DNA from: Mesostigma viride
Taxonomy: Eukaryota > Streptophyta > Mesostigmatophyceae > Mesostigmatales > Mesostigmataceae
NCBI GenBank assembly: GCA_009746045.1
Contig: RPFO01000934.1
Location: forward strand, 609,101-673,100
Length of the DNA: 64,000 bases
Direction of reading: 5' to 3'
The translations under genes were made by a program, and so were the position numbers. Below, in pieces: positions 25,346 through 45,996 of the stretch; position 1 is the stretch's first letter, and each line of letters starts with the position of its first letter. The notes beneath the pieces were generated by a model. That model searched no databases. It was given only the letters and a program-made list of their open reading frames with translations, and was not told the DNA's origin.

Positions 25346-25409
25346 AATCTTCACACTATGCCCAGCTAAGGGGGAGTATGTTATGTGGGGGAAGATCATC
25401 ATGGCTATA

Positions 25410-25957: not shown

Positions 25958-25959
25958 CA

Positions 25960-26838: not shown

Positions 26839-29800
26839 ATGAAACACCTTATGACTTTCTGGCATGCTCTTACCCTCCACAGAATACGGCAATCCAGTGG
26901 CATTGATTACCGGAAGTACACTGCTATTTCTCGGCAGTTCCCCTATCGTATCTCCTCACAGGCATGGCGGAAGCGTTGTCGCATCAACACGCGCCATAAC
27001 CATCACTGCAAGGATGACCATACTCTACGTCGCCTCCGGCGCTTACAGCGCACGCATTTGTCGCTTACCAACTCCACTCGCCCACACCCCGTAAGCACCC
27101 ATCGCGTCATTTATGCCATTTACAACCGCAGGTACCCTCAGCGTATCTACGTTGGCCAGACGCAACGGGATGCCTGGACGCGTTTTCAGGAACATGTCCG
27201 AGCGGCACGCCGCCTTCATATTGGCCGCCCTGCCGCCAACGACGACACCCCCCTACATGGCGCCATGGCCCAATACGGGTGGTGGGATTGGCGAGTCGTC
27301 CCCTTGGAACATGTCCCCGGCACCTTTACCGGCGCCGCTTTTCGCAAAGCCGCAGGGCATCGGGAAACGTTTTGGAAACGAATGTTACATGCATTTCTGC
27401 CCCACGGTTTTTGCATTGAAGGCAAGAGTTTCAAAGCTCGGTCTCGCCGCCGCCCGCCTCCCCTCCGTCCCCGCCCTCTTATGTTCATCCGTGCCTGGCG
27501 TCTGAAGCACAATCTCCACCCATATCGCCCCTATCCCCCCAGCGTCACCCCGGCCCCTCCACCTTCCACACATGTGTCCACCGATCCTTCCCTTTACTCC
27601 ACCAGTCTCCGCTGCTTACGTCACATGTCTCGGCTTATGCAACGCGGCAACTTTCATGCATCCTATCTCGAAGCCTGCAGCTTGAAGAAGCTTACCAGCT
27701 TACACATTGCCGTCGGGTCGTGCTCCCCAGCTGATCTGCAAGTCCCCCGCTCCCATGCCACTAGTCTGCGAGGCCTTCTCTCACGTATCATTCGGCACCG
27801 TGTCAATGGGAATGCAGATGCACTGCGTCCGCGCCGTTTGCTGATCTCACCTTTCATTCATGCTGCGATGGATGAGCTGTGTTTGCCACACATTCTGCAT
27901 TTGCCGCAAGTGCAGGCTGCGATGCCGCTCGTGGTGCGCAACACTTTCGGCACTCCCATTGCCGCCTGGCATTACTCTCCCACCTTGGGACAAATGGTTT
28001 TCAGCAACGGGAAGGTCAGCCGCGATACAACGCCCACCGAGCTGGCCACCATCTTGGCAGGGCCCTGCCCCTGCCAACAACAACGGTATTTCAAGTACCT
28101 TGATCCCACCTCACAGCACGTCATGACCGCTGACCTCAGCATCCTGCCGAGCCACACGCTTGTAGACCTTTTTGCCAAAGGCACCAAGTTTCGGCCGTGG
28201 GTCCAGCGCACGTGTGCCAAAGAGGTGAATGCACTGCTCTCCACATCACTGCGCAAATTCTGCAATGCCATGAGCACGGACCTACAGCTTGCTCCCCTTG
28301 CCATGGAACCGTGGTTTCGCGCCGTCATTCACGAATGCAATGCACGTCTCACCAGGCTTGATTACCGTCTCCAGCAGGTCCACCGCACCACCTGGCTCAA
28401 CACCACAGATAAAGCACTTCTTGACCACTTCAAGCAGGACTTTATCATCACGTGTGTTGACAAGAGTGCCAACAACTTTGCTTTCATATGCAAGAAGCAC
28501 TACCTTGCTACTTTGCAACACGAGTTGGCGTCCAGCCCTACCTATGTTCAGCGTGCACAGTCCACCGCCAGTATCACTGCTGCTCATCGGGCTTTTCTGC
28601 ACAGCCAAAACATTTTTGCTCGGGCATTCCTTAAGCGGCAGCGACGCGCCACCACCACTACGTTCCCATATCTGTATCTCACTCTTAAGCTGCACAAAAC
28701 TCCTGTTGCTTTGCGCACCATTGCTGCGTCGCATTCAGCCCCACTGATGCCTCTCTCGAAACTCATCTGCCATGCTTTGAATGCTCTTCTCCCCGAAGCC
28801 AATGCATTATGGGTGGAGGTGCTGTCGAATGCCGGGTATGAATGCGCTGGTAGTTGGATCGTCATAGACTCAGCCCAAGTACGCCTACGCCTTGCCGCCC
28901 TTAGCCGTTCTAAGACAGCAGCAGAGAAACGTATACCTATGCCCATAGCCACCTATGATTTCACCACTCTATATACCACACTAGATTTGCACGATTTGAA
29001 AGCTCGTTTAGATAGCCTCCTTACTCGTCTGTATGCACGTAGGCCTCACGGGCGCAACCACCTGCACGTGCGTGTTTCTCAGACCAAGCCCACGGCAACG
29101 TGGCTCTCAGGGATCGCGGCAGGTGCTATCGTGCGGGATGGTTATAATTATATTATCACGAAGGCTGACCTTGTCCATTGGATCTCTTATCTTGTTGATA
29201 ACACCTTCATCTGTTTTGCGGGCAATGTATACCAACAAGCTATCGGCATCCCTATGGGCACTAACTGTGCCGGGCTCCTTGCAAACCTCTATCTATACAC
29301 TTATGAGCTTGCATTCATGGAGAATCTCATTGCCTCAAACGATGATGTTCTCATCAGGCGTTTTATCCATACATGTCGATACATTGATGATGTCATCGCT
29401 TTCGACAACCCTGATTTCGCAACCCATTTGTATATCACCGCTGGTCTGCCTGGCATCTACCCGCAAGCGTCCCTCACATTAACTCGTCGTCTGTCCCTGG
29501 TCCTCTACGGAGGACTGAGTTGAACTCAGTCCTCTCTAGAGGACCGAGTTTTTGGGTTTCGTAGAAAATTCGCCCCGGTCAGAATGTTTGACAAAAAAAT
29601 TCTCTCAAAATTTATTCAAATACTACGTGAAAAGATCTTTCTTGGACATATTTTTGGGATTTTTTTGGATTTGGTATGAGCGGCTTAATGTACGGTCAAA
29701 GTACAGGTGGTAAGGGTACTTTTCCACGTGAAACGCGAGTTCCGGAAATGCACGACCTAGCCATGGCGGCTCGCGCCCATGCATGCAGTTTACGTTTGCG

Positions 29801-31829
29801 GACGAGTTAGCTGTCCAAACTCAGGAAATAGATTTAACATGCCCTAAAGATGATAAAAATACATTTTTAGCTCGCGGGGATGCGATTTACCCGGTGTCGG
29901 CACTGTTCTTGCTGGAAAAAACTGCGATAAGGCAGGTCGACGGAATTGATGACTGCGCTTGCTTTCCGGCGCAATTTCAATGGCTGATAGGTTTCTTTCT
30001 ACATTTTAACATGCATCGTATTAGAATAAATTGAGTGACAGTATAGATTTGAGTATTTCGACCATTCTGTCACGTCATGGTCTATGTGCCGCAAAGTGCC
30101 ACTTTTGCGGGCACCGCCTGGGCCAAGGTAACGCCAGCCGTGCCAGGTAAAGCCAGATAATCGTTGCCTCTTCGTTTCTTGATGTTTGTACATGAGTTTA
30201 AGCTTGCGAGGCGTTGTCAGGTTCAAGTCTTGATGCTCTTTCTTGACCGTTGCCTGCCCTCTCTAAAACCCCCTTTTCAGATGATGTTATCAGGCATTTG
30301 CCTTGACCCAGTGTAGTTGTGCAGGGTTTTAGGAGCTGTGCAGGTTTAAACACCTTCATAGATGTTAGTTATTCTTTTGCTACGTTCATACTGCATGATT
30401 TTGAGGCCACGGGCCGCGTCAAGGGTGCATTCAAGCTTTTACGGGTGAGTGAAAAGTCTTGGTGACAAACCACTGCCATCATGTGCCAGCAACTATGTTG
30501 GCCACATCATGGCAAGGCAAAACAGTTATAGCCATATCTATTGTTGTTAGAAACAATGGAAATATGCTTCACCTACCCATTATATTGGTGGTTGACACTT
30601 ATAACATAACCCTTTGTTGGTAGGGTATCCAAGCCCATTCCCTACATGCATGCATAGGCTCTCACTACATGATAAGGTATGATATACCTGAAGTATGATG
30701 ATGCAAGTGTGTTGTCCTGTAATGCTTGAAGGGAAATGAGTTGATTGGGATGGTTGGTGGCCACGGTGGTGTGTAGTATGACCGCACTTACATGCTAGCA
30801 AAGTTAGCAAAAGCCCCATTCCTCTCCTGAGGACTGAGAGTTTTTTAATTGTTTCAGGCAGTTGCAGTGGCCAAATCGAGCCCAGTTTTTTTCCACGTTT
30901 CAAGAACTATGTTGTTTACATGCCTATATTTTTTCTTCATGCACGAGGATTTGATTGAATTTTTCCCACTCGTTCTTATCCCGAAAAATGCAAATTCGCG
31001 AGGGGTGCCCATCGTCCGTGTAATTTTCAGGTGTTCGGGTCAAGTTTTCACATATGCAGTATTTTTGCCAACAAAATGACATCTAGTACACCCCCGATCC
31101 ACATCAAAACATTTGGGATGGACCCCCCACCTAGTCGCTACACGCGGTTGAAAATTGTCAACTCAGTCCTCCTGTGAGGACTGAGTTGGGACAGACGACG
31201 AGTTAAAGCTCACGTCGGAGGATACTCATTGCAATTACCTCAATCTTAACATTACCCATAACAAGAAGGGCTGGCGTACGGCTGTCTATGATAAGCGCAA
31301 GGATCCTAAATACCAGCAAATTCCTTTTATTCGTTACCCCGATATTCACAGTCTCCTTTCCCACACAGCAAAATATGGTGTTGTTCTTTCTCAGTTACAT
31401 CGTTTTTCCCGTCTTTGTTCTTATCGTGTTGATTTCATCACGACTCTTGTTGAACTCTTGCAGCGTTTACTGGTCAAAGACTATGACCGAGCCATTATGC
31501 TCCGGACGTCAAGTCCGATGTTTTTTGCAACGTCACCCACATCTGTTCGGTGCTGCCCCTTGGCACAAGCTCTACAAACAGGTCGTGGACCGGCTGGATC
31601 GCATAGTATCTCCGCACATCTGAACCCTGTGATGCCAGATCTCCTTTGCGGCCGTTCCGAGCTTGGCACTGGATTCGTTGTCCACATCGTCGCGTCGCTG
31701 CCGCAACACGATGTTTTCTGGCATCCGCGGGCTTTTGGTTCCCGCCGCACATTTGAAAGTGCTGTCCTCCGGCTTTTTGCCTTTGCACCGTGTGCAGTTC
31801 TTGGACGTTTGGAATCATGGCATGGCTAA
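26839..31829 (+). pseudogene. Penelope-like retroelement with N-terminal GIY-YIG domain, interrupted
   Basis: An 894-codon frame (26,839-29,523) has an N-terminal GIY-YIG nuclease-type domain at about residues 89-205 (VIYAIYN, then RIYVGQTQRDAWTRFQEH). A reverse transcriptase follows: KLHKTPVALRTIAA, TYDFTTLYTTL near residue 704, GIPMGTNCAGLLANLYLY near 802 and RYIDDVIAF with the catalytic YIDD near 847. The frame is cut by an insert at 29,483-31,202. Removing the insert and one TTAA restores the frame into 31,207 onwards (NYLNLNITHNKKGWRTAVYD, then SQLHRFSRLCSYRV), the RT thumb. Near 31,500 a further frame change is likely, because HPHLFGAAPWHKLYKQVVDR lies in another frame. N-terminal GIY-YIG is known from Chlamys and Naiad-type Penelope-like elements; canonical members carry it at the C-terminus. 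Confidence 0.85.
29483..31202. mobile_element. 1,720-bp TTAA-flanked non-autonomous DNA transposon
   Basis: The element starts CTCGTCGTCTGTCCC and ends with the exact complement GGGACAGACGACGAG, and TTAA flanks it on both sides (29,479-29,482 and 31,203-31,206). TTAA duplication is typical of piggyBac-type transposition. Just inside each end lies a palindrome built on GAGGACTGAGTT / AACTCAGTCCTC (about 29,507-29,533 and 31,160-31,187). No transposase-like frame is visible inside. It sits in the reverse transcriptase of the Penelope-like element and so is younger than it. Confidence 0.85.
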
Positions 31830-32382
31830 CGTGATGACTGACTAGCTAGACCTTTTCAGTGGTTTTCCATTTGCGGGTATTTCCTCGTAAATGGTGGGAG
31901 AGCGATCGCAGCAATGGTGCTCACCACTAGACACTCCCGGCCAGTTAGGCTAGAAACACACGCCCTGATCAAGCATGCTGTTTCCGGCCCCACCGTCTAG
32001 GTCATCTAGTCGCTCCACACGTAAGCCAGCCATAATTTCAATGCACAAGGATACACATTTCCATCACCATTCATCTTCATCATCCTGAACGACTCGAAAA
32101 CGCGGAAAAGATAACGGCAGGCTCGAGCTACCATGGTCCGGATTCTCCCGATTTCTGGCCTGCGCTGGTTGTCTCTTCATTGAAATGATACAAGAGCTAG
32201 GACATGGCTTCTCTACAGAGAGCATCTCTCTGCATGGCATTAAAATTAAATTAAATTAAATTAAATTATAACATGACTCCGTTGGGAGATCATGTAGCAC
32301 ATATTCCCGTGGATGGATGGAGGGGGGGGGCAAAGCCGCGAAACCGAACTAATCTAACTCTAAGCTAATAATCTAGAAAACC
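31830..32382. repeat. Solo end of the foldback element and a family B copy
   Basis: From about 31,945 to 32,180 the sequence matches the right end of the 8,580-9,612 element (GTCTAGGTCATCTAGTCGCT through CCCGATTTCTGGCCTGCGCT). From 32,205 to 32,320 a family B copy has AAATTAAATTAAATTAAATT and CTCCGTTGGGAGATCATGTA. No gene is seen. Confidence 0.65.
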
Positions 32383-32700
32383 CTATATTCTACTCAGCAA
32401 AGCGCCCCTTCCGCTTGGGGCCGGGGGGGGCTTGCCCACAGGGGCGGGCGTATGAGCCTGGACAATGGTTTTCCACCTCCTCTTGTCCTGCATAGCAGTC
32501 CAAGCAAGAGAGAGGGAGTGAATGCGTTTTTCAAACTGCGCTGGGACCACTAGGTCAGCCATCAACTGCTGTGGGTAGGTCATGACATGTTTGCCTACCT
32601 TCTTAGGAATGTCCTTAGGGCCAGGCCAGGTCAGGATATGCCGTCCTGGCTGGCCAAGCCGCTGTGGGCCGGCCAGACCGAGGCATGCATGGCATAGCAT
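32383..32700 (-). CDS. Hypothetical 105-residue protein, possibly transposon-derived
   Basis: The frame starts MLCHACLGL and contains ILTWPGPKDIPKKVGKHVMT and LAWTAMQDKRRWKTIVQAHT. The composition is protein-like rather than repeat-like, but I recognise no family. Its position between repeat copies suggests a fragment of a mobile-element protein. No upstream exon is supported. Confidence 0.3.
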   Translation of the reverse strand: MLCHACLGLAGPQRLGQPGRHILTWPGPKDIPKKVGKHVMTYPQQLMADLVVPAQFEKRIHSLSLAWTAMQDKRRWKTIVQAHTPAPVGKPPPAPSGRGALLSRI

Positions 32701-32761
32701 GGCGATATTCTTCAGAATAGTATGTTTTAGTATATTTAGTTAAACTTAGTACAATTTAGTA

Positions 32762-32841
32762 CAGTCATTCACGCCTTAAGTTGGGTTGTCCCCTCAAAAA
32801 TTCAAAAACCTCGAACCCAACTTAAGGCGTGATTGACTGTA
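32762..32841. repeat. 80-bp hairpin element
   Basis: ACAGTCATTCACGCCTTAAG and its inverse CTTAAGGCGTGATTGACTGT flank a short loop, with an inverted arm of about 27 bases and one mismatch or bulge. It probably is a tiny foldback transposon; its end motif recurs at 25,020. Confidence 0.75.
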
Positions 32842-32999
32842 AAGTAAGTGCGTGAACATGCACTGAACGCATGCCACGGAGTACCCGATGAGGTACTTTT
32901 CTTCGCGGATACTTCACCCGCGAAGGCAAGTGGGTTGACTCGATCACTCAGCCCAGCCTTTGAGTACATTTAATTGTCTCCTTTAATAAATCGCCCTGC

Positions 33000-33225
33000 G
33001 CCGGCTGGCTGCCTCTTTGATCGATAGTCGCGCGCGGGATCACAGATGTGTAGTTCACTTTAGGATTAATTCAACTTAATTATCACATTGTCTCCTTGAT
33101 AATTATCACGTGACTGCGTCACTTGGGTGCCAATACAAAGTAGAGGAACCTTCACCCCCTGTACACAATGACAAGGAGGGAGGGTAGCTAGCTTCTCTCA
33201 CTGCCATCAGTCGGCGGCCGACAGG
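33000..33225. repeat. Dispersed repeat family C, copy 2, at the junction
   Basis: The reverse complement shares blocks with 12,270-12,400, including GTGACGCAGTCACGTG (here CACGTGACTGCGTCAC at about 33,108-33,123). It ends only some 40 bases from the start of the palindrome. Confidence 0.6.
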
Positions 33226-33321
33226 CCATGTGCAGAGCGCTCTATCCACAGCACGGGGCCGCCAGCAACTACGTGAGCTACCCCCCCAGAGCCTCTGCAG
33301 CCCCCAGTCCCCCTAGACCCC

Positions 33322-33570
33322 CTAGACCCCTTGGACCCCCCGGAGCCCCCGGTCCGAACAGAAGTCCTGTAATCTCCACCGCCGCCGTCGCCTGTCCCGG
33401 CCCCGGGAGGCGGCGAAGGGGCAAACGAGGGGGGAGAAGGTAATCCACCTCCGACCGGCGAGAGGGGCCGGAGAGGCCCCGCCAATTTCACTCGCCCCCC
33501 GCCCCGGCCCTCCCGATGGGCGACGCTTGCTTGGATTCTCTTGCACTACTTCTTTTTTAGACTCTTTCAA
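33322..33570 (-). CDS. Small arm ORF with KEVVQENP motif, left copy
   Basis: An 82-codon frame begins MKESKKEVVQENPSKRRPSG and becomes Arg/Gly-rich. It faces away from the ORF at 33,653 across an AT-rich gap, and the two share the motif KEVV(Q/H)ENP near their starts. I recognise no family. Coding status rests on the motif pairing and on the AT-rich gap acting as a shared promoter. Confidence 0.35.
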   Translation of the reverse strand: MKESKKEVVQENPSKRRPSGGPGRGASEIGGASPAPLAGRRWITFSPLVCPFAASRGRDRRRRRWRLQDFCSDRGLRGVQGV

Positions 33571-33571
33571 A

Positions 33572-33650
33572 AATAATTATATGGGTAATGAAAAATTGCA
33601 AAGGGTATAGGCTATATATAGGGCTATATATACAGGAATAATATTTCCCG
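33572..33650. promoter_or_regulatory. AT-rich bidirectional promoter candidate, left arm
   Basis: In a strongly GC-rich arm this gap holds CTATATATAGGGCTATATATA and AATAATTATATGG. It separates two diverging ORFs. The mirror copy lies at about 38,087-38,170. Confidence 0.5.
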
Positions 33651-33652
33651 GG

Positions 33653-33841
33653 GTGGCTGAAAAAGAAGTCGTGCACGAGAATCCACTCCACCTCCGATGG
33701 TCGGGGGCGGCGGGAGAGGTGGCGGCAGGTTCGCTCGCCCCCCGTCCCGGGTCCGTCGCGCCCCGAGTCTGGATGTGTTTGAAACGTCCTTTTCCCTCCT
33801 GGAGGGGTGGCGCGGGCGGGTGGGGGGTCGAGGGTGGATGA
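33653..33841 (+). CDS. Small arm ORF with KEVVHENP motif, left copy
   Basis: A 62-codon frame starting MAEKEVVHENPLHLRWSG resembles the divergent ORF at 33,322-33,570 near the start. The rest is Gly/Pro/Arg-rich without a known domain. The start codon as listed may be GTG (GTGGCTGAAAAAGAAG). Confidence 0.35.
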   Translation: MAEKEVVHENPLHLRWSGAAGEVAAGSLAPRPGSVAPRVWMCLKRPFPSWRGGAGGWGVEGG

Positions 33842-33904
33842 GAATGCGTGGTTTCGGTCGGGCTTCTTTCTGTCGAGTCGACCCGGGTTCTCCCGTTCCA
33901 GTCT

Positions 33905-33968
33905 GCGTCCCGGCGCCCCCCGGGCCGGGGTTGGGAGGGGGTCGCGCTTAGGGGGCGGGAATATTATG
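33905..33968 (+). promoter_or_regulatory. Shared upstream box, copy 1, left arm
   Basis: GTCCCGGCGCCCCCCGGGCC, then GGGTTGGGAGGGGGTCGCGC, TTA, a G-rich spacer and AATATTATGTGGGG. Almost the same order recurs at 34,405-34,470 before the HNH gene, so it may be a promoter or leader common to both arm genes. Confidence 0.5.
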
Positions 33969-33997
33969 TGGGGTCATGGTAAGGGAGATCGAGAGAG

Positions 33998-34387
33998 ATG
34001 GGGACGACTCTGGAGGACGTCCTGACCTGCCACGACTGCCGGCGCGGCATCCCGCTGGAGGGCTGGGACCCGGACCCCACCAGGGTGGACGCGGACGTCC
34101 GCGGGTACCTGCGCGGTCTGATCCCGAGCGTGTACGGCGACGTCGTCGCCCCGTGCCTGGTCTGCCGCGGGTGCCACGAGAGGGAGGAGAAGAAGGAGGA
34201 GTGGGAGGACCCGCCGAGGATGTTCGACGAGCCCCTGAGCGACGACGCGATGCTGATCCTGTGCACCCTGAAGGGCGTGAAGCTGCCCCCTGAGTACAAA
34301 TGGACCACCCCGATGGCCATGTGGGTGGTCCGCGACGGGGGTGTGGTGCTGGCCGGCCCGGCGACCCTGGGCCCGGCGGGTAAGTGA
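33998..34387 (+). CDS. Small CxxC zinc-binding protein, left arm copy
   Basis: The frame starts MGTTLEDVLTCHDCRRGIPL and has a second cysteine cluster PCLVCRGCHEREEKK, giving CxxC and CxxCxxCH pairs that could bind one zinc. The C-terminal half (DDAMLILCTLKGVKLPPEYK) looks like an ordinary small fold. Its stop codon overlaps a good splice-donor string (GGTAAGTGA). The copy at 37,353-37,742 encodes the same 129 residues. Next to an HNH gene it may be a partner protein, but I recognise no family. Confidence 0.6.
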   Translation: MGTTLEDVLTCHDCRRGIPLEGWDPDPTRVDADVRGYLRGLIPSVYGDVVAPCLVCRGCHEREEKKEEWEDPPRMFDEPLSDDAMLILCTLKGVKLPPEYKWTTPMAMWVVRDGGVVLAGPATLGPAGK

Positions 34388-34404
34388 CCGCGGCAAGTCT
34401 AAGT

Positions 34405-34470
34405 CCCGGCGCCCCTCGGGCCGGGGTTGGGAGGGGTCGCGCTTACGGGAGAGGGAATAAAATGTGGGGG
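34405..34470 (+). promoter_or_regulatory. Shared upstream box, copy 2, left arm
   Basis: GTCCCGGCGCCCCTCGGGCC, GGGTTGGGAGGGG, TCGCGCTTA, a purine spacer and GGAATAAAATGTGGGGG repeat the layout seen at 33,905. It lies between the small zinc protein and the HNH gene. Confidence 0.5.
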
Positions 34471-35443
34471 TATGATAACAGCGGCGATAGGCGAGAAAAG
34501 AAGATGACGACCCCCGCGTTCCAGCGCATGAACCTGCTGAACGAGATCGAGAGCTGCAAGAAGATAGCCCACATGCGCAAGAAGATGGGCGTGCACCGCG
34601 TGGTGAGGAAGTTCAACTCGGACTGGCGGTACAAGTGCGGTAAGACGCAGAGGAGGTTCAAGCCTCTGAGCGAGGCGGCGGCTTACGACCGCTGGACCGG
34701 CAAGTGCGCCGAGTGCCGGACGCCCCTCCGCTTCTTCGGCGCGCCGGAGCCCTTGGGCCTCCTGGTCCCCTCGCCGCACCCGAGCAGCGCCGGGCTCTCG
34801 CTGACCGGATCGGCCTCGGGCTGGCCCCCGGAGTGGCGGTGCGGTCTGTGCAGGGCGGGACCTCTGGACTCCGAGGCGGACGAGTTGCGCCACCTGAGGA
34901 CGGAGGAGGAGTACCTGCGCGCCCGGAAGGGGTGGCGATCCCCAGCGGCCCCAAGGTGCCGGTTCTCCCCTTCCCCGAGGTCGCGCCGGAGAGCGCGCCG
35001 AAGGCGAAGCCCCCTCCCCGCTCCTGGGGGGCGGGGAATGCCCGGCCGGCGTGGAGCCGGAGGCGTGGCAGCACGTGAAGGGGTGCCTGACGTCCGCGGA
35101 CTCCAGGGTGAAGAAGGACCTGCCCCTGAGCTGGCAGAGTACGGCTCACGGCGAGCGGGACCTGTCTGGGTACCTGCTGGATGGCGTGAGGAAGCTGGAG
35201 GCGCAAGGATGGGCCTGCGCCCACTGCGGCGGTCTGATGTCCCTGCACGCGCCGCCCGAGCTGGAGCTGAAGCCGTCTCCCGACAAGATCGACACGCTGA
35301 ACCGGGCGTACTTCCCCGACAACTACAGGTGGCTGCACGTGAGCTGCAACCAGTCCAAGGGCGTGGACGACGGCATAGACCAGTGCAGGAGGAGGATGGC
35401 GGAGTACGAGAAGCTGCCGGACGCACCTGACCCCGTAGCATAA
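34462..35443 (+). pseudogene. HNH endonuclease-like gene, left arm copy, two frame breaks
   Basis: This is the mirror of the intact right-arm gene at 36,294-37,277. Relative to that copy it lacks one G near 34,930 and one near 35,027. The first shift ruins the frame after RARKG and the correct frame is regained only from about 35,051 (MEPEAWQHVKG). The nuclease motif itself (DKIDTLNRAYFPDN, then LHVSCNQSKG) is present downstream. Both losses are in G runs, so base-calling error is as likely as decay. Confidence 0.7.
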
Positions 35444-35579
35444 CGAACACCGAATGCTAATGACAAGTTCCCTCATCCAATGCATGTCTGACATGCCACG
35501 CGTCACTGTGCCATTGGTAGACAGTCCCAAAGCAAAGAAGGGCCCATCACCGCAGAGGTGACAGGCCCGGGATGCGCAC

Positions 35580-35745
35580 AAGGAGGGCCGGGTTTGACCG
35601 CATGAGGGAGAGCTGGTTTCAAACAGGGAGGGCTGGGTTTGACAGCATAAGGGAGAGCTGGTTTCAAACAGGGAGGGCTGGGTTTGACAGCATAAGGGAG
35701 AGCTGGTTTCAAACAGGGAGGGCTGGGTTTGACAGCATAAGGACG
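35580..35745. repeat. 45-bp tandem repeat near the palindrome centre, left
   Basis: About 3.5 copies of a unit containing GGGTTTGACAGCATAAGGGA and GAGCTGGTTTCAAACAGG. The mirror lies at 35,992-36,157. A frame through it repeats RAGFDSIRESWFQTG, but I see no sign that it is a gene. Confidence 0.9.
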
Positions 35746-35863
35746 GGTGCGGGTACAGGGCTCCCAGAAAAAATATCTAACCCCCATGGTATAGAGGATA
35801 TCTAGGGTTTCCCAACTCACCCCTGTCCCCATGGGACCATGGGAGATGGTCCCGGCCCCATCA

Positions 35864-35873
35864 GAACGCGTTC
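35864..35873. other. Palindrome centre
   Basis: GAACGCGTTC has its two-fold axis between 35,868 and 35,869, with no unpaired spacer. Inverted identity runs outwards without a break from here. It fits either a head-to-head replication junction or a copied hairpin end. Confidence 0.9.
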
Positions 35874-35991
35874 TGATGGGGCCGGGACCATCTCCCATGG
35901 TCCCATGGGGACAGGGGTGAGTTGGGAAACCCTAGATATCCTCTATACCATGGGGGTTAGATATTTTTTCTGGGAGCCCTGTACCCGCACC

Positions 35992-36157
35992 CGTCCTTAT
36001 GCTGTCAAACCCAGCCCTCCCTGTTTGAAACCAGCTCTCCCTTATGCTGTCAAACCCAGCCCTCCCTGTTTGAAACCAGCTCTCCCTTATGCTGTCAAAC
36101 CCAGCCCTCCCTGTTTGAAACCAGCTCTCCCTCATGCGGTCAAACCCGGCCCTCCTT
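35992..36157. repeat. 45-bp tandem repeat near the palindrome centre, right
   Basis: Mirror of 35,580-35,745, with the same number of units. Confidence 0.9.
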
Positions 36158-36293
36158 GTGCGCATCCCGGGCCTGTCACCTCTGCGGTGATGGGCCCTTC
36201 TTTGCTTTGGGACTGTCTACCAATGGCACAGTGACGCGTGGCATGTCAGACATGCATTGGATGAGGGAACTTGTCATTAGCATTCGGTGTTCG

Positions 36294-37277
36294 TTATGCT
36301 ACGGGGTCAGGTGCGTCCGGCAGCTTCTCGTACTCCGCCATCCTCCTCCTGCACTGGTCTATGCCGTCGTCCACGCCCTTGGACTGGTTGCAGCTCACGT
36401 GCAGCCACCTGTAGTTGTCGGGGAAGTACGCCCGGTTCAGCGTGTCGATCTTGTCGGGAGACGGCTTCAGCTCCAGCTCGGGCGGCGCGTGCAGGGACAT
36501 CAGACCGCCGCAGTGGGCGCAGGCCCATCCTTGCGCCTCCAGCTTCCTCACGCCATCCAGCAGGTACCCAGACAGGTCCCGCTCGCCGTGAGCCGTACTC
36601 TGCCAGCTCAGGGGCAGGTCCTTCTTCACCCTGGAGTCCGCGGACGTCAGGCACCCCTTCACGTGCTGCCACGCCTCCGGCTCCACGCCGGCCGGGCATT
36701 CCCCGCCCCCCCAGGAGCGGGGAGGGGGCTTCGCCTTCGGCGCGCTCTCCGGCGCGACCTCGGGGAAGGGGAGAACCGGCACCTTGGGGCCGCTGGGGAT
36801 CGCCACCCCCTTCCGGGCGCGCAGGTACTCCTCCTCCGTCCTCAGGTGGCGCAACTCGTCCGCCTCGGAGTCCAGAGGTCCCGCCCTGCACAGACCGCAC
36901 CGCCACTCCGGGGGCCAGCCCGAGGCCGATCCGGTCAGCGAGAGCCCGGCGCTGCTCGGGTGCGGCGAGGGGACCAGGAGGCCCAAGGGCTCCGGCGCGC
37001 CGAAGAAGCGGAGGGGCGTCCGGCACTCGGCGCACTTGCCGGTCCAGCGGTCGTAAGCCGCCGCCTCGCTCAGAGGCTTGAACCTCCTCTGCGTCTTACC
37101 GCACTTGTACCGCCAGTCCGAGTTGAACTTCCTCACCACGCGGTGCACGCCCATCTTCTTGCGCATGTGGGCTATCTTCTTGCAGCTCTCGATCTCGTTC
37201 AGCAGGTTCATGCGCTGGAACGCGGGGGTCGTCATCTTCTTTTCTCGCCTATCGCCGCTGTTATCATACCCCCACAT
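36294..37277 (-). CDS. HNH endonuclease-like protein, intact right arm copy
   Basis: About 327 residues from the ATG in GGAATAAAATG; an inner start at 37,235 (MTTPAFQRMN) is also possible. The N-terminal third is basic. Cysteine pairs occur as KCAECRTPL, RCGLCRAGP and WACAHCGGL. The C-terminal part has the HNH layout DKIDTLNRAYFPDN...RWLHVSCNQSKG after the CAHC pair, as in zinc-stabilised HNH nucleases. Giant-virus and homing nucleases of this kind cut DNA. Its place in the terminal repeat suggests a role in end processing or simply mobile-gene spread; both are inference. Confidence 0.75.
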   Translation of the reverse strand: MWGYDNSGDRREKKMTTPAFQRMNLLNEIESCKKIAHMRKKMGVHRVVRKFNSDWRYKCGKTQRRFKPLSEAAAYDRWTGKCAECRTPLRFFGAPEPLGLLVPSPHPSSAGLSLTGSASGWPPEWRCGLCRAGPLDSEADELRHLRTEEEYLRARKGVAIPSGPKVPVLPFPEVAPESAPKAKPPPRSWGGGECPAGVEPEAWQHVKGCLTSADSRVKKDLPLSWQSTAHGERDLSGYLLDGVRKLEAQGWACAHCGGLMSLHAPPELELKPSPDKIDTLNRAYFPDNYRWLHVSCNQSKGVDDGIDQCRRRMAEYEKLPDAPDPVA

Positions 37278-37352
37278 TTTATTCCCTCTCCCGTAAGCGC
37301 GACCCCCTCCCAACCCCGGCCCGAGGGGCGCCGGGACTTAGACTTGCCGCGG

Positions 37353-37742
37353 TCACTTACCCGCCGGGCCCAGGGTCGCCGGGCCGGCCAGCACCACACC
37401 CCCGTCGCGGACCACCCACATGGCCATCGGGGTGGTCCATTTGTACTCAGGGGGCAGCTTCACGCCCTTCAGGGTGCACAGGATCAGCATCGCGTCGTCG
37501 CTCAGGGGCTCGTCGAACATCCTCGGCGGGTCCTCCCACTCCTCCTTCTTCTCCTCCCTCTCGTGGCACCCGCGGCAGACCAGGCACGGGGCGACGACGT
37601 CGCCGTACACGCTCGGGATCAGACCGCGCAGGTACCCGCGGACGTCCGCGTCCACCCTGGTGGGGTCCGGGTCCCAGCCCTCCAGCGGGATGCCGCGCCG
37701 GCAGTCGTGGCAGGTCAGGACGTCCTCCAGAGTCGTCCCCAT
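37353..37742 (-). CDS. Small CxxC zinc-binding protein, right arm copy
   Basis: Encodes the same 129 residues as 33,998-34,387, with LTCHDCRRG and PCLVCRGCHE. It lies upstream of the HNH gene in the same direction, about 75 bases apart, so the two may be co-expressed. Function unknown. Confidence 0.6.
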   Translation of the reverse strand: MGTTLEDVLTCHDCRRGIPLEGWDPDPTRVDADVRGYLRGLIPSVYGDVVAPCLVCRGCHEREEKKEEWEDPPRMFDEPLSDDAMLILCTLKGVKLPPEYKWTTPMAMWVVRDGGVVLAGPATLGPAGK

Positions 37743-37898
37743 CTCTCTCGATCTCCCTTACCATGACCCCACATAATATTCCCGCCCCCTAAGCGCGACC
37801 CCCTCCCAACCCCGGCCCGGGGGGCGCCGGGACGCAGACTGGAACGGGAGAACCCGGGTCGACTCGACAGAAAGAAGCCCGACCGAAACCACGCATTC

Positions 37899-38087
37899 TC
37901 ATCCACCCTCGACCCCCCACCCGCCCGCGCCACCCCTCCAGGAGGGAAAAGGACGTTTCAAACACATCCAGACTCGGGGCGCGACGGACCCGGGACGGGG
38001 GGCGAGCGAACCTGCCGCCACCTCTCCCGCCGCCCCCGACCATCGGAGGTGGAGTGGATTCTCGTGCACGACTTCTTTTTCAGCCAC
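37899..38087 (-). CDS. Small arm ORF with KEVVHENP motif, right copy
   Basis: Identical in frame and sequence to 33,653-33,841. It diverges from 38,170 across the AT-rich TATATAT-containing gap. Confidence 0.35.
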   Translation of the reverse strand: MAEKEVVHENPLHLRWSGAAGEVAAGSLAPRPGSVAPRVWMCLKRPFPSWRGGAGGWGVEGG

Positions 38088-38169
38088 CCCGGGAAATATT
38101 ATTCCTGTATATATAGCCCTATATATAGCCTATACCCTTTGCAATTTTTCATTACCCATATAATTATTT

Positions 38170-38520
38170 TTGAAAGAGTCTAAAAAAGAAGTAGTGCAAG
38201 AGAATCCAAGCAAGCGTCGCCCATCGGGAGGGCCGGGGCGGGGGGCGAGTGAAATTGGCGGGGCCTATCCGGCCCCTCTCGCCGGTCGGAGGTGGATTAC
38301 CTTCTCCCCCTCGTTTGCCCCTTCGCCGCCTCCCGGGGCCGGGACAGGCGACGGCGGCGGTGGAGATTACAGGACTTCTGTTCGGACCGGGGGCTCCGGG
38401 GGGTCCAAGGGGTCTAGGGGGTCTAGGGGGACTGGGGGCTGCAGAGGCTCTGGGGGGGTAGCTCACGTAGTTGCTGGGAAGGCTTTAGGGTGGCTTTCAC
38501 CGTGGCTAAGGCACCCCTAA
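38170..38520 (+). CDS. Small arm ORF with KEVVQENP motif, right copy
   Basis: A 116-codon frame starting MKESKKEVVQENPSKRRPSG. The left copy is shorter because of a one-base difference near a G run and one substitution. The frame crosses the arm boundary at 38,478 and ends in unique DNA, so the C-terminus as read here differs between copies. Confidence 0.35.
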   Translation: MKESKKEVVQENPSKRRPSGGPGRGASEIGGAYPAPLAGRRWITFSPSFAPSPPPGAGTGDGGGGDYRTSVRTGGSGGSKGSRGSRGTGGCRGSGGVAHVVAGKALGWLSPWLRHP

Positions 38521-38540
38521 ACCCTTCCCAGCAACTGCGT
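38463..38540. repeat. Hairpin at the inner edge of the right arm
   Basis: GTTGCTGGGAAGGCTTTAGGG faces CCCTAAACCCTTCCCAGCAAC with a loop of about 30 bases. The inner half also forms a direct repeat with the left boundary: CCAGCAACTGCGTGAGTGAC near 38,530 against CCAGCAACTACGTGAGCTAC at 33,262. Confidence 0.8.
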
Positions 38541-38809
38541 GAGTGACCCCCTCTTTTCCCCCTGTTCCCCCCTGCGTGTCCCCCCCGTTCCGCGCCGAGT
38601 GCTTGGGGACCCCGCAGCGTGTCCCCCCCGTTCCGCGCCGAGTGCTTGTCTGTTTCCCTGTTCCCCCCGCGCGCGAGTCCGTGATCGAGAGTACGAGTGT
38701 GCGAGTGTGTGAGTACGTCGGCAAGTCCGTGTCAGTCTCCGCTGGCGGTGTGCGTGCGTTTATGGTCGCGCTAAAATAATCTCGCGGTTCGTCATATCAG
38801 TGGCGCGCC
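38479..38809. other. Leader of the viral unique region
   Basis: It holds the small hairpin and a direct repeat around GTGTCCCCCCCGTTCCGCGC (near 38,577 and 38,621). The stretch GCGCTAAAATAATCTCGCGG before the next ATG is the only AT-rich part and may be its promoter. Confidence 0.45.
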
Positions 38810-39926
38810 ATGATGCATCCGGTGTCGTTGTCCGAGGCGCGTCTGATGTGCGAGTTCGTGGGCGCGTGCGTGCAGCCGTCGTCGCACATCCAGGAGTGGC
38901 CGGCGGCGGGCAAGCTGGCGGACGCCTTCAACGCGTTCCTCGCGGCGAAGGGTCTGCCCCCGTACGCCGCGTCCCGGCTGGCGGGCCCCTGCCCGGTGGC
39001 GGACGACCTGGCCCTGTGGTCCGGCGTGCTGGCGGGCAAGGGGGGCGTGCTGATGCACGTGGCGGGGGTCGCTGGGGGCGAGAGCGGGGGTGGTACTGGG
39101 CGCAGAACGTGTCGCTGGTCCATCCGGCCCCGTGCCCTCGGACGGGGAGGTGAAGCCGTTCCCCCCTTGGTTCAACGGGGAGCGTTTCCTGGCTGCCCGC
39201 GAGGCGGGCAAGAGGCGCGAGGAGATGCGCAGGTGGGTGAGCGCGTACGCGGGCGAGCACGGGCTGTTCGCGGAGATCACGGAGGAGGAGGAGTCGTTCC
39301 TGGAGGAGTGCCACGGCTACCCCGAGGGCGAGATGGCGGACCTGAAGGGCCTGCGCGAGATCCGCGCGCACATGGCGAAGGCGGGCGGCGCGCCCCCCGC
39401 GTGGATGAACGAGCGCGTCCGCGAGATCCGCGAGCGGCTCACGGCGGCGTTCAGCCGCAAGCAGGGTTCGTCCTCGCGCTGGCGCCTGCGCGACAACCAG
39501 GCGGGCGACGCGCTGACGGCACGGCTGAAGTGGCGGTCGGCGGAGGAGGAGGAGCACGACCTGCAGGGGTCGGGCGAGGCGCGGGGCGGGCGCGAGGAGG
39601 AGGGCAAGGAGCGCGAGGCGGCGGCGCTGGACACGTACCTGCGGCTGTTCCTGCAGCACAGCGACCTGGTGGTCCTGGAACGCGGCGGGCGCCTGCCGCT
39701 GGCGGAGTTCCGCCGCCTGTTCTTCGTGGAGTACCTCCAGAACGGCAGCCGCATGACGCGGCGAGTGCCCAACGCGGACCTGGCCGCCCTGCTGGCCCCC
39801 CACGGGGTCGCCGTGACAGGAAACGTGCGCATGGGCAGCGGGGAGGAGGAGAAGCGCACGGTGTGGGTGACGGGGGTGGCCCGGAGGGCGCTAGGAACGA
39901 CGCGTAATAATAATAATGATGAATAA
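38810..39926 (+). CDS. Viral protein of unknown function with winged-helix-like C-terminus; frame shift
   Basis: The start MMHPVSLSEARLMCEF at 38,810 reads well to about 39,060. The coding frame then moves by one base in a G-rich stretch and continues from about 39,090 (GEVKPFPPWFNGERFLAARE) to a stop at 39,926. The middle is Glu/Arg-rich and helical. The last 90 residues (LRLFLQHSDLVVLERGGRLP, LAEFRRLFFVEYL, then ADLAALLAPHGVAVTG) resemble the small winged-helix modules attached to viral replication or regulatory proteins. That similarity is by eye only and I assign no function. Confidence 0.5.
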
Positions 39927-39968
39927 AACCTCGATGGATGCAATACAGTGAGCGCAAATGCACGGTAT

Positions 39969-41021
39969 TCAGCGCCGCCTCCGCACGGCACTCTGTGGCC
40001 TCCTGACCCGCCTGGCGGCGGTGGGGTGGCCGGGGTCCGGTGGCGAGGGCGGTGGCGGGCCGTAGTTGTCCATCCACCATCGGTAGGCCGCTTCCGGGTC
40101 CGCCCCCGCCTTGCCTTTGTCCCGGTGGCGCCTCTCCTGCTCGCTGGCGGGTGGGGGGACGAGCCAGCTGGGGTCGGCGGGTATCTGTTGTGGCAGTTCC
40201 GGCTGGGGAGGAGGAGGGCTTTGTCGTCGAGAAGGACCGGCTTCCGTGGCGGCGGATCTCTTCGGCCAACGTATGTGACGATGACGCTCCCTCCAATAGC
40301 GCTTTTGGACTTCGTGATTCGTCTCCTGCCCTTCCTCGGCGGTTTTTTGAAGCCATTTGTTGTGGCGGGCCAGTTCTTTTTTTACCCATGCAATGTCGTT
40401 GGGGTCTTCGCTCTTCCATCGTTCAGATTCTTGTTTACGCCTTTCCTTAGTCCTGGCCCGTTCTTTTTTCACCCATGCGATGTCGTCTGGGTCTTGGCTC
40501 TTCCATCGTTCGGCGCGTCGTTCCCTCCGTTTCCGATTTTGGACTTCGCGATTCGTCTCCTGCCCTTCTCTCTTGTAGCTGGCCCGGGCTTTGAGATTGT
40601 TGGCTTCCGATCGTGCGATGTCGTCGGGATCCTTTCTCTTTTTCAGTTCAGCGTATCTTTCCCGGGCTTTACGATTTTTTGCTTCTCTTTGTGTTTCCTG
40701 CCTCTGCGCCTGTTGCCGCCCGCCCTCCTCGTCACCATCCTGGGCGGATCGCTCCTTCTCGTACGCGTCCATGTCGAAAAAAACGTGATCGGCTTTGTCG
40801 AGTCCCTCGGGCATCCCGGGCGTGTTAAGCGGGTCACCGGGCTCCTCGAAGCGGGCCAGCTCGTCCATGTCAAGGGCCCCCAGCTCGTCCATGTCAAGGC
40901 CCCCCACCTCATCCATGTCTAGGCCCACCAGCTCGTCCAGGTCCAGGTCCCCCAGGCCGTCGTCGTCTCCCGGATCGTCCGCCCGCACCCTGTGTCTTCG
41001 GGTCGCTCTCCGCCGCGCCAT
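39969..41021 (-). CDS. Acidic/basic repeat protein, tandem copy 1
   Basis: The start MARRRATRRHRVRADDPGDD is chosen because the neighbouring paralog begins identically. A basic head is followed by acidic repeats of LDMDE(L/V), then about five highly charged helical repeats built on K-x-(D/N)PDDIA and EGQETNR. The end is a Pro-rich stretch and an EAAYRWWMDNYGPPPPSPP tail. No enzyme motif is present. Charge pattern and repeats suggest a nucleic-acid-binding or scaffold protein; this is inference. Confidence 0.7.
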   Translation of the reverse strand: MARRRATRRHRVRADDPGDDDGLGDLDLDELVGLDMDEVGGLDMDELGALDMDELARFEEPGDPLNTPGMPEGLDKADHVFFDMDAYEKERSAQDGDEEGGRQQAQRQETQREAKNRKARERYAELKKRKDPDDIARSEANNLKARASYKREGQETNREVQNRKRRERRAERWKSQDPDDIAWVKKERARTKERRKQESERWKSEDPNDIAWVKKELARHNKWLQKTAEEGQETNHEVQKRYWRERHRHIRWPKRSAATEAGPSRRQSPPPPQPELPQQIPADPSWLVPPPASEQERRHRDKGKAGADPEAAYRWWMDNYGPPPPSPPDPGHPTAARRVRRPQSAVRRRR

Positions 41022-41044
41022 GTTTTGATACATGTCTGAGAATT

Positions 41045-42184
41045 TTATCGGGCTCGCGCCCTTCTGACCCGCCTGGCGGCGGTGGGGTGGCCGGGGTCCG
41101 GTGGCGAGGGCGGTGGCGGGCCGTAGTTGTCCATCCACCATCGGTAGGCCGCTTCCGGGTCCGCCCCCGCCTTGCCTTTGTCCCGGTGGCGCCTCTCCTG
41201 CTCGCTGGCGGGTGGGGGGACGAGCCAGCTGGGGTCGGCGGGTATCTGTTGTTGTTGTGGCGGTTCCGGCGGGGGAGGAGGAGGGCTTTGTCGTCGAGAG
41301 GGACCGCTTTCCGTGGCGGATCTCTTCGCCATCCGTGCGCGACGCTGGTAGTCCCTAATCTTGGCCCGTTGTTTTTCCACCCATTCAACGGCGGCTGGGT
41401 CTTTGCTCTTTCTCAGTTCGGCGCGTAAATCCCTCCATTTGCGATTTTTTAATTCGCGATTCGTCTCCTGCCCTTCCCCGGCGTTTTTTTCAAGCCATTG
41501 TCGACTGTAGGTCCGTCGATTGTTGGCCCGTGCAATGTCGTCGGGGTCCTTGCTATTTCTCAGTTCGAAGAGTCGTTTACTCCTTTCCTTATACCTGGCC
41601 CGTTCTTTTTCCACCCATGCGATATCGTCTGGGTCTTTGCTCTTCCATCGTGCGGCGCGTAGTTCCCTCCATTTGCGATTTTTAACATCACGATTCGTCT
41701 CCTGCCCTTCCTTGGCAATTTTTTCACGCCATCGTCTACTCGAGGCCCGTATACTTTCTAACGATGCGATGTCGTCGGGGTTCTTTCTCTTTTTCAGTTC
41801 AGCGTATCTTTCCCTCCTTCTGCGATTGGTGGCTTCTCTTTGTGTTTCCTGCCTCTGCGCCTGTTGCCGCCCGCCCCCCTCCTCGTCACCATCCTGGGCG
41901 GATCGCTCCAGGTCGAAAAAAACGTGATCGGCTTTGTCGAGTCCCTCGGGCATCCCGGGCGTGTTAAGCGGGTCACCGGGCTCCTCGAAGCGGGCCAGCT
42001 CGTCCATGTCAAGGCCCCCCAGCTCGTCCATGTCTAGGCCCCCCAGCTCGTCCATGTCAAGCCCCCCCACCTCGTCCATGTCTAGGCCCACCAGCTCGTC
42101 CAGGCCCAGGTCCCCCAGGCCGTCGTCGTCTCCCGGATCGTCCGCCCGCACCCTGTGTCTTCGGGTCGCTCTCCGCCGCGCCAT
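41045..42184 (-). CDS. Acidic/basic repeat protein, tandem copy 2
   Basis: Paralog of the next gene downstream, 24 bases away and in the same direction. It shares the start, the acidic LDMDE repeats (four here, three in the other), the charged PDDIA/EGQETNR repeats and the Pro-rich end. An in-frame start at 42,226 would add 14 residues. The pair arose by duplication of about 1.1 kb; the tails are almost identical, the central repeats less so. Confidence 0.7.
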   Translation of the reverse strand: MARRRATRRHRVRADDPGDDDGLGDLGLDELVGLDMDEVGGLDMDELGGLDMDELGGLDMDELARFEEPGDPLNTPGMPEGLDKADHVFFDLERSAQDGDEEGGGRQQAQRQETQREATNRRRRERYAELKKRKNPDDIASLESIRASSRRWREKIAKEGQETNRDVKNRKWRELRAARWKSKDPDDIAWVEKERARYKERSKRLFELRNSKDPDDIARANNRRTYSRQWLEKNAGEGQETNRELKNRKWRDLRAELRKSKDPAAVEWVEKQRAKIRDYQRRARMAKRSATESGPSRRQSPPPPPPEPPQQQQIPADPSWLVPPPASEQERRHRDKGKAGADPEAAYRWWMDNYGPPPPSPPDPGHPTAARRVRRARAR

Positions 42185-42234
42185 GTCCTCGAGTACACCC
42201 GGCTGCGAAAATATTTCATCCTCCACAGGGTCAC

Positions 42235-42580
42235 ATCATATGTGAAGGCACCTCCGCAAACGTTTTTGACGCGGTGAAAACCGGCCCCAACGAGGACCGC
42301 GGCATCTGGATCCACACCAAGCCACCCCCTAGGGATGTGGATCAGCCCATATTTCTGGAGCTGGCCAATATTTCCGTGTTTTGTGATCACTTCCGTTTCC
42401 ATGGTCAGGGGCGAGGAGGATACAGTACTGGAGAAGCTCGGGCCCGGTTTGGGCGTGCTGGGGTACTACGAGGAGGCAAGGGAGTACAGGGGCCTGGAGT
42501 TTGCCGGGCCCAATAAACGCCTGATGGGCGCGAACAGGTGTTTCAATCGCGAGGGCCGCGCAAGACTGGCCGCTTGATTG
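42235..42580 (+). pseudogene. KilA-N relic
   Basis: KTGPNEDRGIWIHTK matches KTGPVDERGVWVHPE of the intact gene downstream. After a one-base shift, MWISPYF matches MWISHDF of the same gene. Only the core of the domain survives and there is no start. It is a truncated second copy. Confidence 0.65.
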
Positions 42581-42684
42581 GCCACGATCGCCGTGCCCTG
42601 AAATGGGATCTACCCTTGGTGCATAATGGGCAAGGAATGCGTTTAAAACATCCTATTTATTATGGATTCATACACGAATAAAGG

Positions 42685-43728
42685 ATGGCTCTCATGAGCA
42701 GCTCGACCCTCTTTACGCATGCACTTTTCAACTTGGCAAAAGAGACCGACCGTATGTGGATATTCACTTTGAAGCCTTCATCGTCTTTCCAGGTAGATCC
42801 GACAAAGGAGATAAAAGTGAGAAAAAGTGACAGGATGATCCATGCACAGGACCTCACGCTTGCAGCTTCTAATGGGCAGAAACGGTTCGAAAGCTGGTTT
42901 CGCCTCGATGGTTCAAAGGCCTTCATCGCAGCCTTGCAGAGGCACCGGGAGGTAGAACACATATCTGCGTTCTATACTGGCGAGGTCACGAGTACCACAA
43001 AGACCGGGCCCGTCGACGAGCGCGGTGTTTGGGTACACCCCGAACTGGTGGGGCAGCTGGCCATGTGGATCAGCCACGACTTTGCTGTGCTGGCAACGAG
43101 CTGGGTGAACCGTATCATGGCGGGTGACATCACGATGATGCAGGTGGTGCGCGACGCCCATGACAGGACGCACGGCACGACCACGACGGTGGCGATCCGC
43201 ACGGAGCTGGCCAACGGGCGCAAGGTGCCTGATTACGCCCCCCCGGTGCGCACGCTGGAGCCCGCCATGCGCGTGGGGTGCAAGGACCTGCAGCACCAAC
43301 TGGGCGACCTGGTGAGCTCGGTCGTCCCCAAGGAGCGCGTGGGGGGCGTGATGGCCTTCCTGGGGGACAAGGTGGCTGAGGCTGCCACCGGCGTGACCGC
43401 GGCCTCGTTGAGGGAGCTGAACCACGTGAAGACGGGCAGCGCCCGAGACCTGATGAACGAAGAGCAGCTGGCGAACGCTTCCTTTTTCATGAGGAAGGTC
43501 ATGTTGCGCGCCAAGGAGGCCGGTCAGAGGGCGGACCTGCACGACATCGGGCTCTCTGTCAGACGGGACATGGCCCCGTTCGTGGTGCCGGCGCGGGGTG
43601 CGACGGCCCCGGAGACGGTGGCGGCCCACCGCCAGCAGATGAAGGATGACCTGGCTCTGACTCGCCCGCTGAACCAGGAGCGGTTCGCATGGCGCGGCGG
43701 GGGGGCGCAGAAGAGGGTGCGGTCGTGA
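42685..43728 (+). CDS. KilA-N domain protein
   Basis: A 347-residue protein. The N-terminal half has the KilA-N pattern: a lead-in with RLDGSKAFIAALQRH, then RGVWVHPELVGQLAMWISHD and the FAVLATSWVNRIM helix. KilA-N is a DNA-binding domain common in large DNA viruses and phages. The C-terminal half is helical (FFMRKVMLRAKEAGQRADLH) and ends basic (KRVRS). The AT-rich sequence just before the ATG (CATCCTATTTATTATGG) may be an early-type promoter. It probably regulates transcription or replication. Confidence 0.8.
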   Translation: MALMSSSTLFTHALFNLAKETDRMWIFTLKPSSSFQVDPTKEIKVRKSDRMIHAQDLTLAASNGQKRFESWFRLDGSKAFIAALQRHREVEHISAFYTGEVTSTTKTGPVDERGVWVHPELVGQLAMWISHDFAVLATSWVNRIMAGDITMMQVVRDAHDRTHGTTTTVAIRTELANGRKVPDYAPPVRTLEPAMRVGCKDLQHQLGDLVSSVVPKERVGGVMAFLGDKVAEAATGVTAASLRELNHVKTGSARDLMNEEQLANASFFMRKVMLRAKEAGQRADLHDIGLSVRRDMAPFVVPARGATAPETVAAHRQQMKDDLALTRPLNQERFAWRGGGAQKRVRS

Positions 43729-44020
43729 ATTTTCAGTATGAGCGGCGGTGGCACTGTCCGGGAGGGCATCCGTTGGCAGCGTCCCCTCCCTGGCAGGCTA
43801 ACGCGCGCTCGGGGGATCGAGTGTGTATATACGCGTGGGGGAGAAACAAAAAGAGGGCGGGTAACCGCGGTGGTGCATGCAAATGGAAAATGAAATTGGA
43901 TTGGATCACACTTTATTGCACATTATAAGAACACTTTATTGCCAGTTATCATCACCCTTTATTGCCAACATCCATTACTGCATCCGGTTGCATCAACCGA
44001 CATGCATACAACAGGGTGAG

Positions 44021-44785: not shown

Positions 44786-44899
44786 GGCTGCGTGCGTCGT
44801 TTGCGTGAATGCCGAGGTCTGTCGACGGTCTGCCCAAATTGTAATGGACTCGACTCTTCTCTCGCTCTCCCCGGCGCCCCACGTGGCAGGTCGCCTATA

Positions 44900-45340: not shown

Positions 45341-45344
45341 CGTG

Positions 45345-45800: not shown

Positions 45801-45996
45801 AGGGCTCGATGGCGCCCCTCGTGTTCGCCATGCAGGCTGATGGCCCGTGGCGCCACCTGATCTTCTCTCCTGTCTCGTGCTTTTCTCGCGTGCTTGATTT
45901 CGCTTTCCAGATACGCCGCGGGCAGACACGGACTCGCACGTTGTCGAGGGGCTGGCGGATGCGGCCGTCGCTCACCTCTTGCCCCTGGTGGCGGGC

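Follow-up and report, generated by a model that had tools for sequence, protein, structure and literature searches.

The closest described systems are the phaeovirus proviruses EVEa-EVEi of Ectocarpus, large DNA viruses of 288-407 kb integrated in an algal genome. In PMC13236599, a telRL-like palindrome with fold-back reads is proposed as the site where these endogenous viral elements change from circular to linear form and back; inverted repeats are described at their attachment site, and insertion takes place at CC with a tyrosine recombinase. Here we describe a 64,000-nucleotide stretch of the genome of Mesostigma viride, a streptophyte alga (contig C91, positions 609101-673100; hereafter the window), in which host-type DNA is joined to viral DNA by a 5.2-kb palindrome. 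The palindrome probably forms one end of the provirus of a linear double-stranded DNA virus.

The provirus in the window resembles the Ectocarpus phaeoviruses, as described in PMC13236599, in its integration in an algal genome, in the palindromic site within the provirus and in the inverted repeats at the attachment site. In contrast to the Ectocarpus linearization site, which is a short internal palindrome within a larger inverted repeat, the palindrome found here is far longer (3.4-5.2 kb, or 2.6 kb where it is cut by a contig end) and lies at the host edge. Furthermore, the 288-407-kb Ectocarpus proviruses insert at CC, whereas the elements described here span 37-121 kb, have lost a 50-bp block and are flanked by varied dinucleotides (GT, TC, AG and CC in four elements) instead of a constant phaeovirus-type CC at both host junctions. 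For the Punuivirus of Chlamydomonas, the discussion of PMC13236599 mentions a provirus with large terminal inverted repeats; the termini described here share an inverted repeat of only about 16-26 bp, which we attribute to the long terminal repeats being joined to each other at one end. A search of the literature by title or abstract found no description of such a provirus.

Poxviruses, chloroviruses and phage N15 have linear DNA with hairpin telomeres and inverted terminal repeats, and form perfect head-to-head joints on replication. Compared with these telomeres, the joint in Mesostigma is integrated in host chromosomes, its closed ends are putative, and the part that occurs in two orientations is a block beside the palindrome (block C, see below) and not the axis. 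The terminal repeats of adeno-associated virus likewise contain a hairpin-forming block that occurs in two orientations and is located at the joint of two ends. Here, however, the block is absent from every host junction read and has defined boundaries, and nothing points to a parvovirus.

A spacer-less palindrome joins host-type DNA to viral DNA

Perfect complementarity extends over 843 bp to either side of the palindrome axis, with no spacer (Table 1). A perfect palindrome of this size is no chance event. Over their full length the two arms are 99.81% identical, the differences being one substitution and four single-base length differences, the latter all within G/C runs. This agrees with the first-pass annotation of the sequence, which had described a spacer-less 5.2-kb palindrome with arms of about 2.6 kb and more than 99.8% identity; only its right end had been placed one base too far, at 38478 instead of 38477. 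The same annotation let one arm run into host-type repeats and the other into viral DNA, and both sides bear this out. To the left of 33262 lies a dispersed repeat, a 384-bp piece with 39 other genome copies among the 40 of 5,533 candidates that were scored, and to the right of 38477 the DNA is GC-rich and encodes KilA-N, SET and bacterial Ig-like (Big_12) domains.

The palindrome recurs at distinct host sites

A search of the genome (440 Mb, 2,243 contigs) with the inner arm yielded 86 matching stretches at 28 places, in addition to one weak fragment. Arm-related sequence forms head-to-head pairs at 26 of the 28 places. We read 21 loci, namely the window and 20 of the other 27 places, leaving out 7 of the 28. 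A near-perfect palindrome is present in 19 of the loci read, the exceptions being L011, which was read in part, and L028, which has a single arm. The spacer at the axis is zero in all 19 palindromes, and the axis itself is of two types, one in the window and L009 and the other in the remaining 17. Arms within one locus differ by 0-14 substitutions, and arms of different loci by 0-27%. Two arm types can be distinguished, which agree almost completely over the outer 600 bp; further in, about 26% of the aligned bases differ and large gaps occur.

Both arms stop at a common end, EndB (ending in GTAGTTGCTGG), within 0-4 bases in 16 of the 19 palindromes and exactly in 12. Beyond EndB, conserved viral DNA follows on one side and locus-specific DNA on the other, the latter with a GC content of 0.44-0.57 over 1 kb (14 loci tabulated). 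Because three pairs of loci (L015/L016, L020/L022 and L021/L023) share their host flank at 99.55-99.75% identity, these 16 palindromes represent 13 distinct host sites. An assembly chimera, which had been offered as one origin of the palindrome in the window, is rejected because these 13 sites, three of which are present on two contigs each, have their axis and outer boundary in common. The single arm of L028 begins no more than 5 bp from the axis, where it abuts viral DNA that matches window positions 43852-46922 at 97-98%. This fits a physical DNA end at the axis.

EndB and EndA mark the provirus termini and border block C on the viral side

On its viral side, the palindrome is followed by block C and then by EndA. 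Block C was read at 22 places: 19 copies are identical, one has an extra base, and two (L018 and L019) are exact reverse complements. The segment EndB-C-EndA has a strong predicted hairpin fold (z -8.3). We considered this segment as the telomere itself and dropped the idea because its two sides lead into different DNA, the arm and the genome.

Three small elements, C1912 (535 bp), C1535 (228 bp) and C1890 (985 bp), extend from EndA to EndB, lack block C and show that EndA and EndB are real termini. Their flanking dinucleotides are GT/GT, TC/TC (up to TCATC) and AG/AG, respectively. Including the C1 provirus described below, the 2-bp flanks are equal in all four elements with both ends read, for which chance would account in about 1 of 65,000 cases at equal base frequencies. 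EndA and EndB are inverted relatives of each other, and the combination of short terminal inverted repeats with a target site duplication is that of a DNA-transposon-like integration.

Block C also contains TTTAGGG, the plant-type telomere repeat, plus its complement, and no tandem array of TTTAGGG is present in the block. The end motif CTCACGYAGTTGCTGG matched 67 stretches in IMG/VR; as chance matches to a pattern of 16 bases are to be expected among 2.9 million contigs, these stretches were set aside.

The far end carries an inverted EndA

In the palindromic provirus on contig C1 (axis at 1477236), the far end was found at C1:1512149 (locus L079), where an inverted EndA is followed by host-type DNA without block C. 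This element measures 37,179 bp and is flanked by CC/CC. Genome matches to EndA, for which 40 of 68 candidates were scored, comprise 17 internal copies, which include the last bases of C, and 23 junction-type copies, which begin at query positions 2-5; three of the latter were read (C1, C1890 and C1912). An internal and a junction-type EndA occur on one contig in six palindromic proviruses (C1, two on C1502, C887, C2067 and C1790, the internal copy of C1790 coming from a separate genome search) and are inverted relative to each other in all six. The distances from EndB to the far EndA, available for five of the six, are 37.2 kb in C1, 40.5 kb in C1790, 91.9 kb in C887, 104.0 kb in C1502 and 120.9 kb in C2067, the last being the closest relative of the window copy. 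The starts of the far-end matches are consistent with the dinucleotide at EndB in C2067, C1502 and C1790, which adds weak support. Inspection of C1790:121500-131499 revealed no provirus end.

Beyond about 350-390 bp from EndA, two kinds of viral flank are found that cannot be aligned with each other. Of the 22 places where EndA is preceded by C, 12 continue into P and 10 into Q; L014 was half covered, and L017 contains a short segment of P. In the C1 element, P is found next to the palindrome and Q at the opposite end, and 343 bp next to EndA are common to both at 99.1% identity. On contig C1878 it is Q that lies beside the palindrome; 58 kb further on follows an inverted P-EndA-C-EndB and then 255 bp of arm, which shows the predicted second EndB-C-EndA site. 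Inverted terminal repeats are thus present at both genome ends, and the arrangement in C1 and C1878 implies that a joined molecule could be opened on either side of the palindrome.

Proposed route from linear genome to provirus

We consider it likely that the palindrome is one end of a provirus whose parent, a linear double-stranded DNA virus of an alga, had its ends joined at the axis and was opened at an EndB-C-EndA site, with C lost and the rest inserted. The viral genome would have two distinct inner sides, P and Q, and the same inverted terminal repeat at both ends, consisting from inside to outside of an inner part (about 345 bp), EndA, C (50 bp), EndB and the arm (2.1-2.6 kb), with the axis as the physical end. 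Head-to-head joining of the two physical ends at the axis would create a long palindrome between two EndB-C-EndA sites. A recombinase or transposase would open one of these sites with cuts along the outer borders of EndB and EndA and loss of C, and the remainder would enter host DNA with a 2-bp target duplication. The provirus would then read host, EndB, arm, axis, arm, EndB, C, EndA, genome, inverted EndA and host.

This order of parts is firm. Less so are three elements of the proposal, for which we infer that virion DNA would be linear with covalently closed hairpin ends, that the joined form would be a circle and that a recombinase or transposase would be the acting enzyme. Since the joint is always perfect, copying around a closed end is favored over ligation of broken ends. 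The idea that a joined or copied viral telomere had integrated as part of a replication intermediate, already contained in the first-pass annotation, gains backing from the comparison of loci, which adds to that annotation the second terminus, block C, the two classes of flank, the equal dinucleotides and the far end. The viral structure is real and recurrent, and it appears to record the passage from a linear genome to a provirus.

Tentatively, we extend this proposal to the exit of the virus. The provirus may keep both telomeres as one head-to-head joint between two equivalent attachment sites that could be opened on either side, with each insertion dropping the invertible 50-bp block, to be restored from its second copy. 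As the joint encodes an endonuclease VII-like enzyme (see below), the provirus might serve as a self-contained cassette for rebuilding two telomeres.

Several observations weigh against the proposed route. Both host junctions were read only in the C1 palindromic provirus, the other five pairs being match coordinates, and for 12 of the 17 internal EndA copies the scored candidates include no partner at a far end; several of these copies lie near contig ends, a location that may account for the missing partner. On C1878, the second site has just 255 bp of arm behind it before other viral DNA begins. The arm boundary extends past the EndB point by 4 bases into C-like sequence in L012 and by one base in L014, L020 and L022, and the common boundary is not seen in L010, where the contig ends inside the arm, or in L024 and L027, where the arm is interrupted. 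L028 could also have originated from a palindrome broken at its center. No enzyme for opening and insertion was identified, and the telomere resolvase profile PF16684 had no genome match in a search that covered part of the proviral DNA and that a diverged or split gene could escape.

The proposed route bears on how large linear viruses enter and leave algal chromosomes. The circular-linear switch of phaeoviruses has so far been argued largely from reads of one endogenous element, and in Mesostigma many copies in one genome seem to preserve an intermediate, with the joint, the attachment sites, the discarded block, both ends and matching target dinucleotides. Comparing the copies offers a possible route of a virus from linear DNA to inherited insertion and points to repeated insertion into one algal genome. 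Each proposed step can be tested with long reads from a single culture. Additionally, a long palindrome combined with EndB/EndA-like termini provides a search rule for related proviruses, which could otherwise be dismissed as assembly chimeras.

Table 1. Coordinates of the features of the palindromic provirus and its host flank in the window
Feature	Position	Strand	Basis or remark
Host-type DNA left of the provirus	1..33261		Dispersed repeat at 32300-32683; RRM and SUZ-C domains
EndB at the host junction	33262..33277, CCAGCAACTACGTGAG on the + strand	-	Same boundary in 16 of 19 palindromes
Left arm, outer part of the viral terminal repeat	33262..35868 (2607 bp)	+	99.8% identical to right arm
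45-bp tandem repeats of the left arm	35578..35742, mirror copy at 35995-36159	+	Repeat scan
Palindrome axis	35864..35873, GAACG^CGTTC, midpoint 35868/35869		No spacer in any of the 19 palindromes; probable terminus of the linear viral molecule
Right arm	35869..38477 (2609 bp)	-	Complementarity to left arm
Open reading frame of 339 amino acids, HNH protein most like phage endonuclease VII	36294..37313	-	PHROG 1035, E 4.6e-8, residues 257-314
EndB of the right arm	38462..38477, CTCACGTAGTTGCTGG	+	Sequence and common boundary
Block C, 50 bp	38478..38527	+	22 places read; either orientation in different copies
EndA, other provirus terminus	38528..38543, CCAGCAACTGCGTGAG	+	Host junction in the C1 element and three small elements
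Inner part of the terminal repeat, common to P and Q flanks	38528..38885	+	Alignment of window with L020 ends at 358 bp
Viral genome, P side at the palindrome	38528..64000	+	Contig C91 stops at the window end; far end outside the assembly

Alternative explanations

The provirus could instead derive from a head-to-head concatemer (P-axis-P or Q-axis-Q) that was copied around a hairpin end, the inserted unit being cut between EndB of one monomer and the far EndA of the next. Copying around a closed end is expected to give perfect, spacer-less joints, and since the same terminal repeat is present at both ends, a provirus formed in this way would be identical in appearance to one derived from a circle. 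We regard this origin as possible, if somewhat doubtful.

If integration were the work of a site-specific recombinase that makes one crossover within a short core, which is the proposal for the Ectocarpus phaeoviruses, the palindrome would be a linearization site with long arms. For those proviruses, PMC13236599 describes a palindromic linearization site together with an attachment site and a circular stage, and an inverted pair of sites could also flip block C. However, a single crossover retains every viral base and would leave C at one end, whereas neither end of the C1 element or of the three small elements has C; moreover, the dinucleotides that flank them vary and are not the constant CC. 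We therefore consider this explanation unlikely.

The palindrome could also have been made after integration by host repair, as an inverted duplication starting from a break, the arms then being kept similar by gene conversion. Long inverted duplications are a possible product of DNA repair, and the few substitutions that separate the arms within a locus (0-14) would agree with such an origin. Independent events are not expected to produce one axis and one boundary at 13 distinct sites, nor would they explain why P and Q alternate or why an intact EndB-C-EndA lies next to the inner arm, which makes host repair very improbable.

Finally, an assembly or fold-back artefact is hardly credible: four of the five differences between the window arms lie in G/C runs, a typical place of sequencing errors, but fold-backs would not be expected to agree in their axis and outer boundary or to form head-to-head pairs at 26 of 28 places, and three sites were assembled twice together with their host flank.

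Genes encoded by the element

Endonuclease VII family members cut four-way DNA junctions, and the HNH protein of 339 amino acids encoded in the right arm may belong to this family, an assignment that we make with modest confidence from the profile match. The frame of the left-arm copy is disrupted, and the corresponding open reading frame (ORF) of the other arm type matched PHROG 1035 with an E-value of only 0.0022. Comparison of the arm types shows weak selection on the ORF (rate of nonsynonymous substitutions 0.29, of synonymous substitutions 0.49). A second endonuclease VII-like protein is encoded in the Q flank (L012:982-1749, E 2.6e-8). A Pfam scan of both proteins gave no match above the cut-off, searches of solved structures with the 339-amino acid protein returned nothing useful, and its single-sequence structure model was poor (mean predicted local distance difference test score 40.6). 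An action of the enzyme on the joint is a matter of speculation. No relatives of the palindrome ORF were found among 5.8 billion proteins (2,173 candidates).

Four proteins of the window had no relatives in IMG/VR. A viral protein of 919 amino acids matched three predicted Mesostigma viride proteins (41-59% identity), in addition to one weak match. These relatives suggest Mesostigma or a related alga as the host; a search with an RRM exon of the host returned no match. The profile of family B DNA polymerase (PF00136), a protein that together with a double-jelly-roll capsid protein would indicate a Nucleocytoviricota or polinton-like virus, had 11 genome matches, none of them in the located proviruses, in a search covering part of the proviral DNA. 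General ORF scans revealed neither a transposase nor a DDE integrase; no profile search aimed at either was made.

Host flanks and additional observations

A genome search with the host DNA flanking the window's own insertion found no empty allele. As a candidate empty site we also considered C1:1566845. On this contig, which is homologous to that of L013, the host sequence leads into a dispersed repeat about 745 bp long, whose first base lies where the provirus of L013 begins; the position is the edge of this repeat and therefore not a clean empty allele. The host-type DNA of the window also contains about 32 repeats of a 60-bp unit (79-2002).

Directly outside EndB in L015 (7462-9849, contig C392; the same flank occurs in L016 on C154) lies a major capsid protein gene (Capsid_N, E 1.8e-27), accompanied by an ATPase-like ORF that scored below the cut-off (AAA_10, E 1.8e-5). 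These genes suggest that this provirus is located beside or inside another viral relic. In L024 and L027, on both contigs, one arm is split by other DNA with ORFs that resemble mobile-element genes by eye. At C1106:2214548-2220372, an EndB end and a junction-type EndA enclose 5.8 kb in which the palindrome has no match; this is probably an internally deleted derivative.

A further copy of the 10-mer at the axis (GAACGCGTTC) is present at 62067-62076 in the viral part of the window, probably by chance. The viral part also contains a diverged tandem duplication with 24-bp repeats (39999-42226), in which 40288-41023 matches 41430-42186 at 82.5% and 39999-40268 matches 41060-41331 at 94%.

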